DNA of 28,571 nucleotides from positions 1 to 28,571 of the IMG/VR virus record IMGVR_UViG_3300006802_000401; one strand, 5' to 3'. Both the position numbers and the translations under genes were made by a program. The notes beneath the pieces were generated by a model that saw only the letters and a program-made list of their open reading frames with translations, had not been told where the DNA came from and searched no databases. Each line of letters begins with the position of its first letter. Position 1 is the first letter of the stretch. This DNA is from a virus. Of the stretch, positions 1,116 through 27,659 are shown in pieces.

Positions 1116-2865
1116 AACTCATCTCCTTTTGTAGAGCTTCTAAAGTTCGATACAGATATGGAGTTAAATCCAATCTTGGATCCGCAGCCATCGGAAGATC
1201 CGGTGATTGCGGGTGGGGGGTCTGCATCATCCCTCCCACTAAGCGAGCGAACTGAGAGTATGCACCCTGTAGTTCGTTCACCATCCTGAACGGGAACCCA
1301 GATAACATCTCGGCCCGTTCCTCATCCGTCTTAGACGGGAAGAGGTACTTCAGTGCTTCAATGCTATCAACACCTAACTCTTGTAAGTTTCTTACAACAA
1401 TTGAGTTGTTGAGGATGTCCTGGGTTGAGTCCTCGTAAACGGGACCCGTCCAGCGCCACAGCATTGTCACATCACCATCTGGGATGAGACCTGTAACGCC
1501 TGGTGGAATCTGTTGTGTTTGAACAGATGCCATCATTAGCTGTTTAATTTGTTGGTTGAAACCATCCAACGCAGCTTCATACAAATCTAATTCATCTTGA
1601 GATGCATTTTCGGATGGAGGTACCGGTTTCTCGATACCGGCTGCAGCTGCAATTGACTCTCGGAACAGTTTTTCTTCCTGGAAAATAATCAGTTCAAGAC
1701 AACGACAAATTCCGTGCGTATAGATGGCAGTTGCTTTCTTCTTAGAAGTTGCTGAGACCCGCCCGAAGAGAGACTTGTATTCAGTCGCAGTAACACCAGC
1801 AGAAATAGAAAGCTCGTCAACACCACCCAGCGCCGTACGTACTTCTTCTCTAAACTGCCGGGCAAAAGCATTCTGGTCACCAGTGATGGCGTCGGGGACA
1901 ATGTAACCAACTCGGTCGTTTGGTTCCAGGTTTGCAATGATGCGTGGAACTCTGATCTGACCATCGAGACCACGGGAGACAGGGTCTTGCTTAAACGCCG
2001 AACGACTAAGGGCACTGGGACTGCCAAAGCCAGAGTTTGCTGCAATCGAGGGGCGTTGGATAACGCTGTCTCCCCCGGCATCAATCAGGTCAGTCTTCGG
2101 ACGAGAAGACAGCAGGGTTGGGTTGCCAAAGAACGTAATGTTCTTCCGCATGGTGCGGACCAGATCGTCATGCGTAACAATCTGATTGGCGAGAGCATCA
2201 AACTCTCCGTAACCCTCCATAGAAAACCCTTTCGGGTTGTTAAAGATTTCTACGCAGGGAATAAAACCGAGGGAATTTTTAAATTTCTTGGTTGTGCCAG
2301 GGGTGGTATAGGAGGGAAGATCAAACGACATCTCACCTTCTGAGTGAGTTTCTTCGATAACGTCTGCTTTGATCGAGAGCTTGATATAGCGCTTGGCACC
2401 CTGATCGGCCGTGGTGGGGTTACCAGTCATGTTGGTGACGTTAATGTTGTCACCAAAACCAAAGCCACGACGGACCTTGTAGCTGTAGATGATCACCACC
2501 TCTTCCAGCTCGCCGTCTACGTTGTAGAAACTGCGATACTCGTGCTCTCGGAAATAGTAGAGACGATAGTTTTGTTTGGTGGGACGGATGTAAAAAAGAC
2601 CCTTGCCATCACAAAGGAAATAATCCCAGATGGAATCAAGTCGCGTATCAAGCTGGTTGTACTTGATTACGCGGTCAATAAAGTCTTTACGTTGGTTTCC
2701 AAAGTTGTCTTGACTGGGGAAGAACTCGATACCCTGACGGATACCGAACAGCTTCATCTGCGCCAGATGCGACGAAACGATGCTGGTATCAACGACGGTC
2801 GCAGCATCTTTATCAATGTAAGCATTGATGATTTCTTGAAGCCTGGCTTTAGCGTCCGTCGCCAT
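517..2865 (-). CDS. portal protein
   Basis: 782 aa. Forms the dodecameric ring at the capsid vertex through which DNA is packaged. The call rests on general portal character (an N-terminal alpha/beta region with FFPSQDNFGNQRKDFIDRV, a central DALANQIVTHDDLVRTMRKN helix, a FREEVRTALGGVDELSISAG segment) and on its position after terminase and before a scaffold-like gene. The start has AAGGGG about ten bases upstream. Up to about residue 583 the sequence is ordinary globular protein. The last 199 residues are Gly/Ser/Pro-rich with a basic end and overlap the next gene in another frame. That tail may be real dual coding or a frame that merely stays open. Length is above that of many portals because of this tail. 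Confidence 0.8.
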   Translation of the reverse strand: MATDAKARLQEIINAYIDKDAATVVDTSIVSSHLAQMKLFGIRQGIEFFPSQDNFGNQRKDFIDRVIKYNQLDTRLDSIWDYFLCDGKGLFYIRPTKQNYRLYYFREHEYRSFYNVDGELEEVVIIYSYKVRRGFGFGDNINVTNMTGNPTTADQGAKRYIKLSIKADVIEETHSEGEMSFDLPSYTTPGTTKKFKNSLGFIPCVEIFNNPKGFSMEGYGEFDALANQIVTHDDLVRTMRKNITFFGNPTLLSSRPKTDLIDAGGDSVIQRPSIAANSGFGSPSALSRSAFKQDPVSRGLDGQIRVPRIIANLEPNDRVGYIVPDAITGDQNAFARQFREEVRTALGGVDELSISAGVTATEYKSLFGRVSATSKKKATAIYTHGICRCLELIIFQEEKLFRESIAAAAGIEKPVPPSENASQDELDLYEAALDGFNQQIKQLMMASVQTQQIPPGVTGLIPDGDVTMLWRWTGPVYEDSTQDILNNSIVVRNLQELGVDSIEALKYLFPSKTDEERAEMLSGFPFRMVNELQGAYSQFARLVGGMMQTPHPQSPDLPMAADPRLDLTPYLYRTLEALQKEMSYAGRYRPIDPTDEPTVARSGSSKQLRGGSTAGSTGSSGLSGGYQLPASGSSGGPQLPIRPYSVRPPVPIGPDGGIDLQSVGIGVQQGGEPSEQSSSIPVPGSTVGSDDLYPGQLRVDQPPTYATLGSADLISQPGILAQLFPNLLESILGGNRGLRGDEPGVPPGNGRVRDGSSGNPEQLRSSAGNNAGQRRRVGKPRK

Positions 2866-19505: not shown

Positions 19506-19546
19506 GCTAGGCATCACCTACGCCAACTAGGTGTGTAAGTCCTAGC
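19506..19546 (+). promoter_or_regulatory. covarying two-stem leader RNA, copy A
   Basis: Outer stem GCTAGG/CCTAGC (19506-19511/19541-19546), conserved CAT on the 5' side, inner stem CACCTA/TAGGTG (19515-19520/19528-19533), loop CGCCAAC, then conserved TGTAAGT closing into the outer stem. A G-poor leader runs from here to the ATG at 19577. Compare copies B and C: stems differ, pairing and the internal-loop bases are kept. Confidence 0.7.
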
Positions 19547-19576
19547 ACTCACCTTGACCTTTACCCAATTCAACTC

Positions 19577-19714
19577 ATGACTAACCTTCAACAACTTGAC
19601 AACAACTACAACGCTGATCTGATGGATGCCATGTCAGACATCTATGAAGAGCAGCAAGAAGCTATCAGAGAAACCGAACCAGAAGACTGGGAGGGATACG
19701 ATGACCAAGCCTAA
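19577..19714 (+). CDS. 45-aa acidic peptide
   Basis: Starts at the ATG that follows leader copy A and the CAATTCAACTC string also seen before other starts here. Helical and very acidic (NADLMDAMSDIYEEQQEAIR, TEPEDWEGYDD). Ends at TAA 19712-19714, overlapping the start of the next frame by 14 bases. No family recognised; its place at the head of the transcript and typical leader support it. Confidence 0.6.
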   Translation: MTNLQQLDNNYNADLMDAMSDIYEEQQEAIRETEPEDWEGYDDQA

Positions 19715-20318
19715 CTCCACGGCGACTAGAACATCAGTACTCACTGAGGATGTTGATATCATCCTTCACATCATCGTCATCATCTCCATCATCATCACTG
19801 AGTTCATCTCATGCTTCATCCCACAACCCAAGCCATCGCAGAATCCTTCGGCTACGTCCCCTTCTCTGAAGAAGAAGCCGAGGAGCAGTTCCAAGCAGAC
19901 ATCAGCTGGGACCCAGAAGGCAGTGGCCTCCCGTCGAACGGCAGTGTCTACCGCAACAAGCAAGGCACGCTCCGTTGCTACTGGAAGCCCAGCCAAGACG
20001 AGGAAGACCTCGAAGGATGGTACGACATCCCGAGCAACGAAGACATCGAGGAGTGGTCCTTCGATAGCATCTGCTGCACCCCAGCAGGCGACGAAGTCGA
20101 ACCCGACCATCCCGATAGCTGGCTCTCAATCCTCGGTCTCATCTGATGTCAACTCAGCTACAGAACCAACTCCCAGCGCTGACAATCAACCAGCGCAACA
20201 TCTACACCTACTTCCTCAATCACAGAAGGAAGAACGGCAAGAGTCCCTGCTTCGTTCCAAGGCTTCCGTCTCAAAGCTCAAGGCTCGACCAATACCTCCA
20301 GGCTTTGGCCAAGCTTGA
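19701..20318 (+). CDS. short membrane protein with long overprinted basic tail
   Basis: 205 codons from ATG 19701. Residues about 19-40 (DIILHIIVIISIIITEFISC) are a clear transmembrane segment encoded by an ATC-rich tract that overlaps no other gene. From about residue 42 the frame enters the 111-aa gene in another frame and becomes Ser/Thr/Lys/Ala-rich and basic, staying open for 500 bases into the 86-aa gene. The membrane part is credible. The tail may be genuine or only an open shadow of a G/C-biased gene, in which case the real product has no clear end. TTG- or ATG-initiated upstream extension to 19626 would overlap the 45-aa gene and was not used. Confidence 0.4.
   Translation: MTKPNSTATRTSVLTEDVDIILHIIVIISIIITEFISCFIPQPKPSQNPSATSPSLKKKPRSSSKQTSAGTQKAVASRRTAVSTATSKARSVATGSPAKTRKTSKDGTTSRATKTSRSGPSIASAAPQQATKSNPTIPIAGSQSSVSSDVNSATEPTPSADNQPAQHLHLLPQSQKEERQESLLRSKASVSKLKARPIPPGFGQA
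19811..20146 (+). CDS. 111-aa acidic hypothetical protein
   Basis: ATG at 19811 is fixed by an in-frame TGA four codons upstream. Reads as ordinary protein: PTTQAIAESFGYVPFSEEEA, then SVYRNKQGTLRCYWKPSQDE with Trp/Tyr/Cys-rich strands and an acidic end. Strongly negative overall. Stop shares a base with the next start (TGATG). No family recognised. It lies inside the membrane-peptide frame; this frame has the better codon and residue pattern. Confidence 0.65.
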   Translation: MLHPTTQAIAESFGYVPFSEEEAEEQFQADISWDPEGSGLPSNGSVYRNKQGTLRCYWKPSQDEEDLEGWYDIPSNEDIEEWSFDSICCTPAGDEVEPDHPDSWLSILGLI

Positions 20319-20406
20319 GGAGTACGGACTCATCCGTGTAGACAGATCCGCTGCTAACTACACAGCATGGATCATCTCAGAACCTAAGGAGAGTATTTGT
20401 ACTTAA
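20146..20406 (+). CDS. 86-aa winged-helix-like protein
   Basis: LTINQRNIYTYFLNHRRKNG resembles the first helix of LexA-type and other winged-helix domains (x-Q-R-x-I-x-x-Y-I). SSRLDQYLQALAKLEEYGLI would be the recognition helix region, and DRSAANYTAWIIS the wing strands. Single-domain, so a DNA-binding repressor or regulator is plausible, inferred from pattern only. Coupled to the 111-aa gene by a one-base overlap. It ends 30 bases before leader copy B. Confidence 0.55.
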   Translation: MSTQLQNQLPALTINQRNIYTYFLNHRRKNGKSPCFVPRLPSQSSRLDQYLQALAKLEEYGLIRVDRSAANYTAWIISEPKESICT

Positions 20407-20435
20407 TATTGTTTGTCATTTGCGAATAGCGAATA

Positions 20436-20468
20436 CCTGGGCATCACCTCTGGTGTGTAAGTCCCAGG
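20436..20468 (+). promoter_or_regulatory. covarying two-stem leader RNA, copy B
   Basis: Outer stem CCTGGG/CCCAGG (20436-20441/20463-20468), conserved CAT, inner stem CACC/GGTG (20445-20448/20452-20455) with a three-base loop, conserved TGTAAGT. A leader with no G follows to the ATG at 20508. From 20459 it shares 27 identical bases with copy C. Confidence 0.75.
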
Positions 20469-20485
20469 CTTTACCTCAACCTCAC
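20459..20485 (+). repeat. 27-bp direct repeat, left copy
   Basis: Identical to 21483-21509. Together they bracket a roughly 1-kb segment that holds a 61-aa plus-strand gene and an inverted 248-aa gene. Confidence 0.85.
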
Positions 20486-20507
20486 ATCAAATCAAATCAA
20501 ATTAACC

Positions 20508-20693
20508 ATGTTGAACTTTATTTGTATGACTGCTGTCTGTGTACAGCAGTACCTTGGTACAGGTTATGTACTTACTTCAGATGGACAACGTTTCATCTGG
20601 GATGGTTTTAGTAAAGACTATGTCTGTACTAATTATTCAAACATATATCAATGTGCATCAATTCAACTTCCAACAATTTATTGGTATCGATAA
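20508..20693 (+). CDS. 61-aa Cys-containing hypothetical peptide
   Basis: Starts at the ATG after leader copy B (attaacc before it). Hydrophobic N-terminus (MLNFICMTAVCVQQYLGTGY), four Cys and many Tyr/Thr. Could be a short secreted or membrane-associated peptide, but a clean signal peptide is not present. Its 3' end overlaps the convergent 248-aa gene by 16 bases. A/T content is higher than in genes to the left. Confidence 0.5.
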   Translation: MLNFICMTAVCVQQYLGTGYVLTSDGQRFIWDGFSKDYVCTNYSNIYQCASIQLPTIYWYR

Positions 20694-21424
20694 CCTGGAT
20701 TGCGCCTAATGTAATCCTCAGTCTGTTCTTCCATCAAGGCTCTGCCTGCAGACAATGGTGTATCAACAGTTGGACCTGATAAAGACAACGGTATTCTTTG
20801 ATCAAGTCCAAATCCATAATATGGATAACTCTTTTGTTCCCGTTGTTTTGGTGTTATGAACTGACTGAGATATGGCGGCAAAATTTCCTCGACTTCACCA
20901 CCTGGCATTCTTTTAACACCAGGGATCATTTGGTTTCGTCCGCCAAAGTTGATCGTGGCTTGGATACTTTTATCTCCAGCCCATGTACCTTGTAAACCAA
21001 ATGGACCAACATTAATACTTCCACCTGTTGGATTAAAGCCTGCACGCCATCCTTGATTGGATTGAATATCTAATCCACCAGGTGTTAACGATACCATTCC
21101 AGTATTATCTGCAAGACTCAAACCTTGTCCTGTAAAAGCACCAAGCAATTGTGCGGCTTCAGGACTATGACCAGTAGATCCCATCATTGGATTGTAGTCT
21201 GGCGTCCAGCTTGCTGGGTTTGCAGTTACAGTGTTCAACAAATTTTGGAAAGCTTCGCCAGCAGCTTCCTTTGTGAACGGTTTAAATTGATTGTAATCAA
21301 CAGGTGTTTTCTTTAAACGTCCTTCATTTAAAACTTTTTCAAAATCATCTGTATACGCAAAGCCACCTAACGATGGGCCAGCAAGTAATCCTTGCATTCC
21401 AGCAAGTGGGATAGCACCAGGCAT
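20678..21424 (-). CDS. 248-aa inverted gene, virion-like hypothetical
   Basis: Minus strand, against its neighbours. Start at ATG 21424; a TTG nine bases further out (21433) has no better ribosome site. Gly/Pro/Ala-rich N-terminus (PGAIPLAGMQGLLAGPSLGG), a middle of beta-like repeats (NPTGGSINVGPFGLQGTWAG) and a polar Tyr-rich end. Composition resembles the minor virion proteins of the left arm, which share this strand. Flanked by 27-bp direct repeats within leader copies B and C, with a different base composition, hence it looks inserted. No family recognised. Confidence 0.65.
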   Translation of the reverse strand: MPGAIPLAGMQGLLAGPSLGGFAYTDDFEKVLNEGRLKKTPVDYNQFKPFTKEAAGEAFQNLLNTVTANPASWTPDYNPMMGSTGHSPEAAQLLGAFTGQGLSLADNTGMVSLTPGGLDIQSNQGWRAGFNPTGGSINVGPFGLQGTWAGDKSIQATINFGGRNQMIPGVKRMPGGEVEEILPPYLSQFITPKQREQKSYPYYGFGLDQRIPLSLSGPTVDTPLSAGRALMEEQTEDYIRRNPGYRYQ

Positions 21425-21454
21425 TGATATCAATTAGTTTTATTCATTGTACAA

Positions 21455-21491
21455 CTGGGCATTCATCTCAATAAGATGATATAAGTCCCAG
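21455..21491 (+). promoter_or_regulatory. covarying two-stem leader RNA, copy C
   Basis: Outer stem CTGGG/CCCAG (21455-21459/21487-21491), conserved CAT, inner stem TCATCT/AGATGA (21463-21468/21474-21479) that shares no sequence with copies A and B, conserved TATAAGT. A leader without G leads to ATG 21523. Confidence 0.75.
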
Positions 21492-21509
21492 GCTTTACCT
21501 CAACCTCAC
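21483..21509 (+). repeat. 27-bp direct repeat, right copy
   Basis: Identical to 20459-20485. It spans the 3' half of the outer stem of leader copy C and the first part of the G-free leader. Confidence 0.85.
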
Positions 21510-21522
21510 CTCAAACCAAACT

Positions 21523-21783
21523 ATGGCCTACAAGAACGAATACACCTACGTTCAAGAAGCTTTGACTCTGCTGAAAGCAATCAGCGAACGTGAATCAAAG
21601 CGTCATGAAATGGATCAGCACCTCACTCCGAGCATGCTTGCACTGCTCGATGACGAGATCATTCCCATGATTGAGAATGAACTTGATGTGGACTATGCAC
21701 CAGACGAGGTGGGCGAACCGCCTATCACGATGGCTGAAATGCATGCCGCCGCATGGAAGGAACATCAAGCCATGCACTCATGA
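21523..21783 (+). CDS. 86-aa acidic hypothetical protein
   Basis: Follows leader copy C. Helical: EYTYVQEALTLLKAISERES and LTPSMLALLDDEIIPMIENE, then an acidic loop (DVDYAPDEVGEPP) and MAEMHAAAWKEHQ. No family recognised. Overlaps the zinc-ribbon start by four bases (ATGA). Confidence 0.65.
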   Translation: MAYKNEYTYVQEALTLLKAISERESKRHEMDQHLTPSMLALLDDEIIPMIENELDVDYAPDEVGEPPITMAEMHAAAWKEHQAMHS

Positions 21784-24809: not shown

Positions 24810-25088
24810 ATGGACTCCAAAGAACATCAAGAGTACCTGAACAACGTAAGAGCTATGGCTGATGAGGCAGCCTATGACTACACCGATGACCAACTCCTAG
24901 CTATGGCTCTTGGAAACATTGGTGACTACATCCATGACAACTCACCTCAGTACATCCTGATCGACGAAGATCCTCGCAACGAGGAAGACTACGACACCTG
25001 GGAGTACGGCACTGAGCCGTTACCACAGGATCACACTTGGCACTCTGCAGCTATTGATGTAGAGGTAAGTCCAAGTGAGGCCGACTAG
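24810..25088 (+). CDS. 92-aa acidic hypothetical protein
   Basis: Very acidic: helix QEYLNNVRAMADEAAYDYTD, then LLAMALGNIGDYIHD and a loop of Asp/Glu/Pro. Its last ten bases are also the first ten of the tRNA gene: the stop codon TAG occupies tRNA positions 8-10. No family recognised. Start ATG is the only one after the terminator-like hairpin. Confidence 0.65.
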   Translation: MDSKEHQEYLNNVRAMADEAAYDYTDDQLLAMALGNIGDYIHDNSPQYILIDEDPRNEEDYDTWEYGTEPLPQDHTWHSAAIDVEVSPSEAD

Positions 25089-25154
25089 CCCAACGGCAGA
25101 GGCAAGCGACTTAAAATCGCTCAAGTCCCGGTTCGAATCCGGGGTCGGCTACCA
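25079..25154 (+). tRNA. tRNA-Leu(UAA) with short variable loop
   Basis: 76 bases with encoded CCA. Acceptor GGCCGAC/GTCGGCT (G-U at pair 1), D-stem GCC/GGC, anticodon stem AGCGA/TCGCT with loop CTTAAAA giving anticodon UAA, T-stem CCCGG/CCGGG with loop TTCGAAT. Reads codon UUA. Variable loop is five bases, so the molecule has class I form although cellular tRNA-Leu is class II with a long variable arm. Overlaps the preceding gene by ten bases. Confidence 0.93.
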
Positions 25155-25588: not shown

Positions 25589-25981
25589 ATGAAACTCAAC
25601 GAACAATCTCAACCTGAGACAGACGAGTCTACTGTTGAAGTAACAGATGAACAGCAATACGATCCTGAGCTTGCTCTCAAGATCATGGAAGCTGTACCTC
25701 GTCACACCTGGCCTGCTGTACTTGATGCATGCGTGGCCAACATCGTTGATGAACTTCCATCCGATACTTTATTCCGCATAGCTGAACTCTATTTAACTGA
25801 CTATTACATTGAGAACCCCAGGCAAATTATTCCTGACATGCTGCGCATTAAAGGTGCTGAGGCTACGGTCCACATCCTTGATGCACTTCAGTTAGATAAG
25901 CTGCCTGGTCCTGCCAAGATGCGTGCAGAGGAAGAAGAACAACGTACTGATAACTCACCAAGCTCAATCGATCCCGACTGA
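25589..25981 (+). CDS. 130-aa acidic helical hypothetical protein
   Basis: Start at ATG 25589; an in-frame ATG at 25553 would place the terminator-like hairpin inside the coding region, so it is not used. Acidic N-terminus (TDESTVEVTDEQQYDPELAL), then a fully helical body (WPAVLDACVANIVDELPSD; FRIAELYLTDYYIENPRQI). Leads a string of five overlapping genes ending in thyX. No family recognised. Confidence 0.65.
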   Translation: MKLNEQSQPETDESTVEVTDEQQYDPELALKIMEAVPRHTWPAVLDACVANIVDELPSDTLFRIAELYLTDYYIENPRQIIPDMLRIKGAEATVHILDALQLDKLPGPAKMRAEEEEQRTDNSPSSIDPD

Positions 25982-26376
25982 TGGCTTTTCAGAAGACTAT
26001 TCTTCCTGATTGTCCTCAATGCAAACAACCTGGACTCAGAGTTATTGAATCCAGGAAAACTGATTTTGCTACAAGGCGACGCAAGAAATGTGAACACTGC
26101 GGCTTCCGAGTTACAACTTATGAAGTCACTGCAGATTTCTATGAGGAAGCCAAGAGTAACCTCTATCTTGTTTCGCAACTACACAAGTTACTTGGAGGTA
26201 AGCCACTCCCATCTGGAGTAGAACCACCCCCATCTGGGGTGGACTTCAAAGCACTCAACAAATGCAGTGACTGCCAACACAACAAGGATGGTTGTTACTG
26301 CGCATTCGATTTCCCTGAGTACGACACAGCCGAGTCGTATGACTGCAATCACTTTCAACTCTGGAAACCCAAATGA
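25981..26376 (+). CDS. NrdR-like zinc-ribbon protein without ATP-cone
   Basis: 131 aa. Residues 11-48 copy the NrdR zinc-finger pattern: CPQC (11-14), VIESR, an Arg/Lys cluster TRRRKKC and CEHCGFRVTTYEV, matching C-x2-C, V-x-D-S-R, R-R-R-x-x-C-x-x-C-G-x-R-F-T-T-Y-E. NrdR represses ribonucleotide reductase genes through this finger and an ATP-cone. No ATP-cone follows here; instead a second cluster of Cys at about 95, 98, 105, 107 and 122 appears, perhaps binding another metal. Possible phage decoy or regulator of host nucleotide metabolism, by inference. Overlaps both neighbours (TGATG; ATGA). Confidence 0.75.
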   Translation: MAFQKTILPDCPQCKQPGLRVIESRKTDFATRRRKKCEHCGFRVTTYEVTADFYEEAKSNLYLVSQLHKLLGGKPLPSGVEPPPSGVDFKALNKCSDCQHNKDGCYCAFDFPEYDTAESYDCNHFQLWKPK

Positions 26377-26675: not shown

Positions 26676-27019
26676 GAGTTGAGAAGCCCTGGGGTTGGTA
26701 CGACACACTAACCCCAGATCAAACTGCACTCTTCCGTGGCTACCTCGTTAAAGAACTCCACGTCAAGAAAGGCCATCGCCTCAGTCTCCAACGCCATCAA
26801 CACAGATCTGAACACTGGATCGTAGTAACTGGTGAAGGATTGTTTGAATGTGATGGTCGCGTTCAGTTAGTTAACGAAGGCACTCACCTCTACATTCCAA
26901 AGTACGCAGTACACAGACTCACTGCACAGGACCAAGACATTCGTATTGTCGAAGTTCAGTGTGGTGAAATCATTTCAGAGGAAGACATCGAACGTCTCGA
27001 GGACGACTATGAACGTTGA
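26672..27019 (+). CDS. mannose-6-phosphate isomerase type II-like cupin
   Basis: 115 aa, single domain. KPWGWYDTL opening and GHRLSLQRHQHRSEHWIVVT then GTHLYIPKYAVHRL are the two cupin motifs (metal ligands two His, one Glu, later His) as in the C-terminal isomerase domain of ManC/AlgA. The end ISEEDIERLEDDYER also matches the family's S-E-x-D-I-x-R-x-x-D-x-Y-G-R tail. Catalytic activity as a lone domain is plausible but not certain; other sugar-phosphate roles remain open. Its stop lies 11 bases inside the thyX start. Confidence 0.8.
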   Translation: MRVEKPWGWYDTLTPDQTALFRGYLVKELHVKKGHRLSLQRHQHRSEHWIVVTGEGLFECDGRVQLVNEGTHLYIPKYAVHRLTAQDQDIRIVEVQCGEIISEEDIERLEDDYER

Positions 27020-27659
27020 ACTAACCTGGCTCACGCCCAATGCAGAAGAGATGATTGTCAAGATGGCACGGGTCTCTGCCCCTGCTAATCAAGACAACAT
27101 GGATACTGCACCACGATTGTTGAAGTATCTAATCAAGCACAAGCACTGGTCACCTTTTGAGATGGCCAACATGTGTGTAGAGATTGAAACCACACGTGCA
27201 ATCTCACCCCAGATTCTTCGGCATCGGTCCTTCTCATTCCAGGAATTCAGTCAGCGCTACGCAAGCGCAGCTGAGATGGGTGGTATTATCCTGCCTCACC
27301 TCCGTAGTCAGGACCGCAAGAACAGACAGAACTCCAATGACGATCTAAAGGAACGTCTTGGTGGTGAGAAGCTGACTAGCTTTTATCGCCGCATGTCTAC
27401 CATTCTGGAAGACTCCAAGCATCTCTACAACGAGATGGTCAGTGAGGGTGTTGCCAAGGAGTCAGCACGCTTTGTTCTGCCTCTTGCGACACCGACACGC
27501 CTTTACATGAACGGTACACTCCGTTCGTGGATCCACTACCTCCAACTCCGCTGTGACTCAGGTACCCAACTCGAACACAGAGAAATCGCAGAAGCCATCA
27601 AAACAATCTTCTGCAAAGAGTTCCCCGTCATCGGAGAAGCAGCCTTTGCAGAAGACTGA
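27009..27659 (+). CDS. thyX: flavin-dependent thymidylate synthase
   Basis: 216 aa from ATG 27009, preferred over a start at 26946 that would overlap the cupin by 74 bases. Makes dTMP from dUMP with FAD and methylenetetrahydrofolate. Signature RHRSFSFQEFS at residues 71-81 (RHR-x7-S) for dUMP/FAD binding, HWSPFEM at about 46-52, and the C-terminal RSWIHYLQLRCDSG...EHREIA region. Normal family length and intact. Overlaps the cupin by 11 bases; both sit in the coupled operon with the NrdR-like gene, suggesting support of phage DNA synthesis. Confidence 0.96.
   Translation: MNVELTWLTPNAEEMIVKMARVSAPANQDNMDTAPRLLKYLIKHKHWSPFEMANMCVEIETTRAISPQILRHRSFSFQEFSQRYASAAEMGGIILPHLRSQDRKNRQNSNDDLKERLGGEKLTSFYRRMSTILEDSKHLYNEMVSEGVAKESARFVLPLATPTRLYMNGTLRSWIHYLQLRCDSGTQLEHREIAEAIKTIFCKEFPVIGEAAFAED

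Follow-up and report, generated by a model that had tools for sequence, protein, structure and literature searches.

The stretch of DNA analysed here (the window, 28,571 nt) is a 28.6-kb virus record and represents a fragment of an S-EIV1-like cyanophage; its terminase shares 82% identity with the enzyme of Synechococcus phage S-EIV1, which was isolated from a high-arctic lake. On its plus strand, several small reading frames as well as a tRNA gene are preceded by copies of one compact motif:

19506-19546, plus strand: RNA motif copy 1 (outer stem GCTAGG/CCTAGC, core CAT/TGTAAGT, inner stem CACCTA/TAGGTG)
19547-19576, plus strand: leader from copy 1 to the ATG at 19577 (30 nt, G-poor, without a Shine-Dalgarno sequence)
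20436-20468, plus strand: RNA motif copy 2 (outer stem CCTGGG/CCCAGG, inner stem CACC/GGTG)
20469-20507, plus strand: leader from copy 2 to the ATG at 20508 (39 nt, G-poor, without a Shine-Dalgarno sequence)
20508-20693, plus strand: 61-aa gene downstream of copy 2, conserved among related contigs
21455-21491, plus strand: RNA motif copy 3 (outer stem CTGGG/CCCAG, inner stem TCATCT/AGATGA, loop strand TATAAGT)
21492-21522, plus strand: leader from copy 3 to the ATG at 21523 (31 nt, G-poor, without a Shine-Dalgarno sequence)
21523-21783, plus strand: 86-aa gene downstream of copy 3, conserved among related contigs
24810-25088, plus strand: conserved 92-aa ORF, with copy 4 within its last codons and its 3' end overlapping the tRNA-Leu gene
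25034-25077, plus strand: RNA motif copy 4 (outer stem CACTTGG/CCAAGTG, core CAC/GGTAAGT, inner stem TCTGCA/TGTAGA)
25079-25154, plus strand: tRNA-Leu(UAA), starting 1 nt past the end of copy 4

When the window sequence was rechecked, copies 1 to 3 had the coordinates and stems given in a preliminary description of this DNA. That description had counted three copies, one too few: a window scan allowing a variable third base of the CAT detected a fourth, laid out as CACTTGG CAC TCTGCAGCTATTGATGTAGA GGTAAGT CCAAGTG. The pattern GGCATN8-24TRTAAGTCC matched three times in the window and not once in 100 shuffles, and a covariance model, whose training set included all four window copies, gave them E-values of 1e-8 to 4e-12, with the next window match at 0.65. 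Copies 1 to 3 each stand, as proposed, at the start of a plus-strand gene group of their own (the ATG at 19577 downstream of copy 1 opens a 45-aa ORF), but copy 4 heads the tRNA instead. The 92-aa ORF (24810-25088) and the 5' end of the tRNA-Leu (25079-25154) share 10 nt, and tRNA maturation would strip the stop codon from the mRNA of this ORF. Besides, a conserved minus-strand gene (20678-21433) sits among the plus-strand genes of the window, with its start codon ~30 nt from copy 3.

The motif is composed of an outer helix, an asymmetric core, GGCA(N)...(N')RUAAGUCC, and an inner helix, and both GGCA and RUAAGUCC are unchanged in nearly all copies. The internal loop had been read as 3 x 7; it is rather 2 x 6 (CA / RUAAGU), since the T of CAT and the leading T of TRTAAGT face each other as a U.U position, which is elsewhere occupied by G-C, C-G, G.U or A-U. 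Among 252 copies, this N-N' position was U.U in 198, G-C in 25, G.U in 16, C-G in 10 and A-U in 3, and no mismatch other than U.U occurred. RNAalifold additionally predicts a pair between the GGCA cytosine and the AAGU guanine, which would leave a U bulged. About 12 invariant core bases are held between two variable helices, and the smallest form measures 28 nt. While the core stays invariant, the gap between its halves ranges from 6 to more than 40 nt, so that a factor can read both halves together only when the motif is folded.

Pairing in both helices is under selection. In scans of IMG/VR in which all positions were fixed and only the third outer pair was varied, this pair was G-C in at least 119 stretches, A-U in 44, G.U in one and A.C in none, and a scrambled-core control returned a single stretch. 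A looser pattern gave 113 stretches with U-A at this pair, some of them due to chance. The inner stem was unselected in the scans, and its first pair formed in 114 of 117 different loops; over 329 copies, it was formed in 313, against 232 expected under independence. In an alignment of 54 diverse copies, 11 of 13 pairs showed changes on both sides, the covariation score was reached by none of 500 shuffles, and slid controls scored 0.06-0.12 as compared to 0.46 for the true alignment. Since paired arms were a criterion in choosing these 54 copies, cleaner evidence for pairing comes from the pattern scans. At positions unselected for pairing, G.U combinations outnumbered A.C ones by 57 to 13, which points to the sense strand as the folded one and, hence, to RNA. 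An excess of GNRA and UNCG loops was discarded as proof of RNA: the other common loops, TTAC and TTGC, are reverse complements of GNRA loops, so that this excess is not strand-specific.

The motif is thus a conserved, covarying RNA structure of the sense strand. Its earlier portrayal as a selected RNA structure in leader position that is absent from Rfam was borne out and strengthened by further strong covariation, and a search that could have returned the window copies only turned up hundreds with additional covariation. In all, hundreds of uncultured phages as well as one sequenced isolate, S-EIV1, share a compact RNA element whose covariation is decisive.

At the motif, in the window and 17 other loci, no Rfam 15 family reached its gathering threshold, also in a scan opened up to E 10. 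The only Rfam 15 matches in the scanned loci were tRNAs and one Glutamine-II riboswitch (RF01704; L151:6691-6745) in a motif-bearing phage. As stated before, the motif is not a glutamine riboswitch, which cmscan found elsewhere in L151 and never at the motif. Glutamine-II, or Downstream-peptide, RNA is alike in being a short cis-acting RNA of cyanobacteria and cyanophages, but differs in sequence and fold. A core of roughly 12 invariant bases flanked by variable helices, the location beside tRNAs and the occurrence in tandem units would suit a small self-cleaving ribozyme, yet the Rfam ribozyme covariance models gave no match and the 28-nt smallest form is below the size of the known natural self-cleaving ribozymes, which makes this a very improbable reading. 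A candidate mimicry of rRNA was likewise dropped, as nothing convincing was seen in E. coli rrn and the best model match covered the outer arms only. The preliminary description had also put forward a ligand sensor. A ligand-sensing riboswitch would fit the 5' leader position, and cyanophages do carry candidate regulatory RNAs of a riboswitch-like sort (PMC2864571). However, with up to nine copies per phage record, which precede tRNAs and small, for the most part uncharacterised genes, and with neither an alternative fold nor an expression platform apparent, we regard it as the most improbable of the options considered here. The manA, wcaG and PhotoRC-II RNAs resemble the motif in being structured leader RNAs of cyanophage genes (PMC2864571); they are bound to particular metabolic genes, whereas the motif recurs, up to nine times in a record, ahead of various unrelated genes as well as tRNAs. 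No published description of the motif was found in the open-licence literature.

Copy number ranges from one to nine per phage record, mainly as clusters on one strand, and at least four groups of phages carry the motif:

Group 1: S-EIV1-like phages
Group 2: phages with a phrog_4652 gene (beside RecT in L165), part of them close to S-CBS1/S-CBS3
Group 3: S-CBWM1-like phages, with the motif upstream of the major capsid gene
Group 4: phages with terminase phrog_2 and tRNA-Asn

The terminase or capsid relatives are cyanophages in three of the four groups (1 to 3). Of the copies in S-EIV1 itself, the one at 41437-41477 is clear, that at 40727-40786 weaker and that at 65516 marginal. In the search of isolates, no copy was present in S-CBWM1, S-CBS1-4, S-TIM5, Syn5, P60, S-CRM01, S-PM2, S-CBP1 or Lsp-JY19. 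A candidate copy in P-SSP7 (E 1.4e-4) is doubtful, as it is not conserved in the relatives NATL2A-133 and 9515-10a. Bacterial and archaeal genomes totalling 257 Gb contained two matches to the CTGGG form; both lack the inner stem and were dropped as host-genome copies. The motif may aid in assigning uncultured viruses to cyanobacterial hosts. Genes of the phrog_4652 type are found in divergent motif-bearing phages (L026:1670-2257, L165:1988-2659, L224:7015-7656). In L026 and L165 the motif directly follows this gene, and in L165 a RecT-like annealing protein adjoins. In L026, an S-CBS-like phage, long G+C-rich intergenic repeats of the GGCNNGGC type lie right behind the motif (1400-1640, minus strand).

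Where both neighbours were present, 93 of 162 copies begin 0-7 nt past the stop codon of an upstream gene on the same strand. This leaves no space for a terminator, and these copies would thus be co-transcribed with the upstream gene. The motif-to-ATG distance has a median of 29-30 nt in each class of stop-codon distance (0-8, 8-30, 30-80 and 80-150 nt; Spearman rho 0.09), and in the S-EIV1 group the motif lies a median 29 nt upstream of the AUG. Being independent of the stop distance, this constraint faces the downstream gene. S-CBWM1-like copies lie 43-49 nt before the AUG, and copies of the S-CBS-like group have no nearby ATG. Besides, 43 copies are located upstream of a tRNA, at a distance of 3 nt (n=27), 4 nt (n=15) or 5 nt (n=1). 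The tRNA-adjacent copies differ in spacer sequence and in tRNA-Leu sequence; many to most of them are orthologous, so that their spacing does not reflect many independent events. In the orthologous copies, the motif also codes for the end of a conserved protein (DHTWHS..I.V.VSPS). The bases immediately 3' of the motif are barely conserved. A sigma-70-type promoter test on the motif flanks revealed no -35/-10 elements at a fixed upstream distance, and an upstream A/T signal considered as a -10 box falls on the upstream gene's stop codons. An intrinsic terminator was rejected, too: no U run directly follows the hairpin, and the 3' flank is mixed C/U/A, the doubtful P-SSP7 candidate excepted.

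The downstream RNAs are of two unrelated kinds, each at its own fixed distance, which suggests a role of the motif in setting RNA 5' ends, most simply through cleavage by a sequence-specific factor. We therefore favour, at a probability of roughly 0.4, a cis-acting recognition site, probably for an RNase, which sets the 5' ends of mRNAs and tRNAs. Acting in cis, the motif would be recognised by a factor that determines where the downstream RNA begins. An RNase, be it from the host or a common accessory factor, would cut polycistronic phage transcripts at the folded motif or immediately 3' to it, releasing tRNAs with little or no leader and leaving cistrons with a G-poor, Shine-Dalgarno-free leader of ~28 nt. 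Both the cut, with its position, and the nature of the factor are inferred. An RNase site and a binding site for a phage protein had both been suggested earlier. Either kind of site fits the spacing, but the recogniser need not be phage-encoded: BLAST across 16 genome sets, several of them fragments, found no protein common to all groups, which renders a host factor likelier. A recogniser common to unrelated cyanophages would, if so, indicate an undescribed host RNA-binding protein or nuclease.

Cleavage between cistrons is known from the T7-type RNase III R sites, where several structures of the stem-internal-loop-stem kind lie between co-directional genes and divide the messages. The motif, too, is a stem-internal-loop-stem structure between co-directional genes. 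However, R sites are longer and recognised by shape, whereas the motif has ~12 invariant core bases, and its copies, unlike R sites, also occur ahead of tRNAs and in phages unrelated to each other. Pure processing meets its main difficulty in copy 3 of the window: because the divergent conserved gene starts only ~30 nt away, the copy 3 transcript is no obvious read-through product.

This location, along with the short fixed distances to tRNAs and AUGs, would be accounted for if the motif were a hairpin promoter in single-stranded DNA with transcription starting just 3' of it. Such small hairpins, the promoters of the N4 virion RNA polymerase, precede early genes of that phage. Yet the N4 hairpins act as single-stranded DNA, while the motif has sense-strand wobble pairs (G.U over A.C, 57:13), two helices and a fixed asymmetric core. 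The loop length of 6 to more than 40 nt also speaks against such a promoter, as do the more than half of the copies that abut a stop codon and would be transcribed from upstream anyway, and, for S-EIV1 at least, an annotation that lists neither an RNA polymerase nor a giant virion gene. We consider it quite improbable.

The main rival of an RNase site is a translation-initiation leader, in which the folded motif would dock a ribosomal or RNA-binding protein ~28 nt before the AUG and so replace the Shine-Dalgarno sequence, or would stabilise the 5' part of the mRNA. None of 116 motif genes has a Shine-Dalgarno-like site, as opposed to 213 of 1260 (17%) other genes on the same contigs, and leader G content is 4.5% for motif genes versus 16% for the others. 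The tight AUG spacing, independent of the upstream gene, agrees with such a role as well. However, many cyanobacterial genes lack a Shine-Dalgarno sequence anyway, and the tRNA-adjacent copies, a non-coding tandem array and the S-CBS-like copies without a nearby AUG would all be left unexplained, so that we deem this rival unlikely, though a serious contender.

The tandem arrays are found in three low-GC contigs, between the phrog_4652 gene and the next gene. They comprise five (L165:2659-3372), four (L166:1900-2545) and three (L167:1755-2160) units of ~130-155 nt, and are non-coding. In each unit the motif is followed, after ~90 nt, by a second conserved hairpin, GCCTGT-ACTTA-ACAGGC (AAGTYYGCCTGTACTTAACAGGC), with the next motif ~10-15 nt further on. 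Tandem units of 130-155 nt that each start with the motif are expected of a unit separator, and the arrays may encode a family of small RNAs. They also bear on the option that the motif modifies a passing RNA polymerase in the manner of the HK022 put RNA, whose cis-acting hairpins head early phage transcripts. Several sense-oriented copies at the heads of gene groups and before a tRNA would be in keeping with antitermination; put RNA differs from the motif in size and sequence, though, and the motif adds many copies and a strict distance to the AUG or tRNA, which an antiterminator does not require. Given also that successive copies lie within ~130 nt of each other in L165-L167, antitermination appears improbable.

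For the preferred RNase site, the spacing rules (~29 nt to the AUG, 3-5 nt to the tRNA) sharply predict transcript 5' ends. More far-reaching, and possible rather than likely, is that the motif defines a new, phage-restricted class of RNA, with which unrelated cyanobacterial viruses set 5' ends through a sequence-specific host nuclease or a minimal ribozyme. If true, phages would possess a general punctuation between cistrons that at the same time matures tRNA 5' ends.

Further genes of the window include one for a 596-aa protein with a PcfJ-like domain (Pfam PF14284; 22969-24759) and one for a protein with an N-terminal NrdR-like zinc ribbon (25981-26376), near which a thymidylate synthase gene is located (26946-27659).
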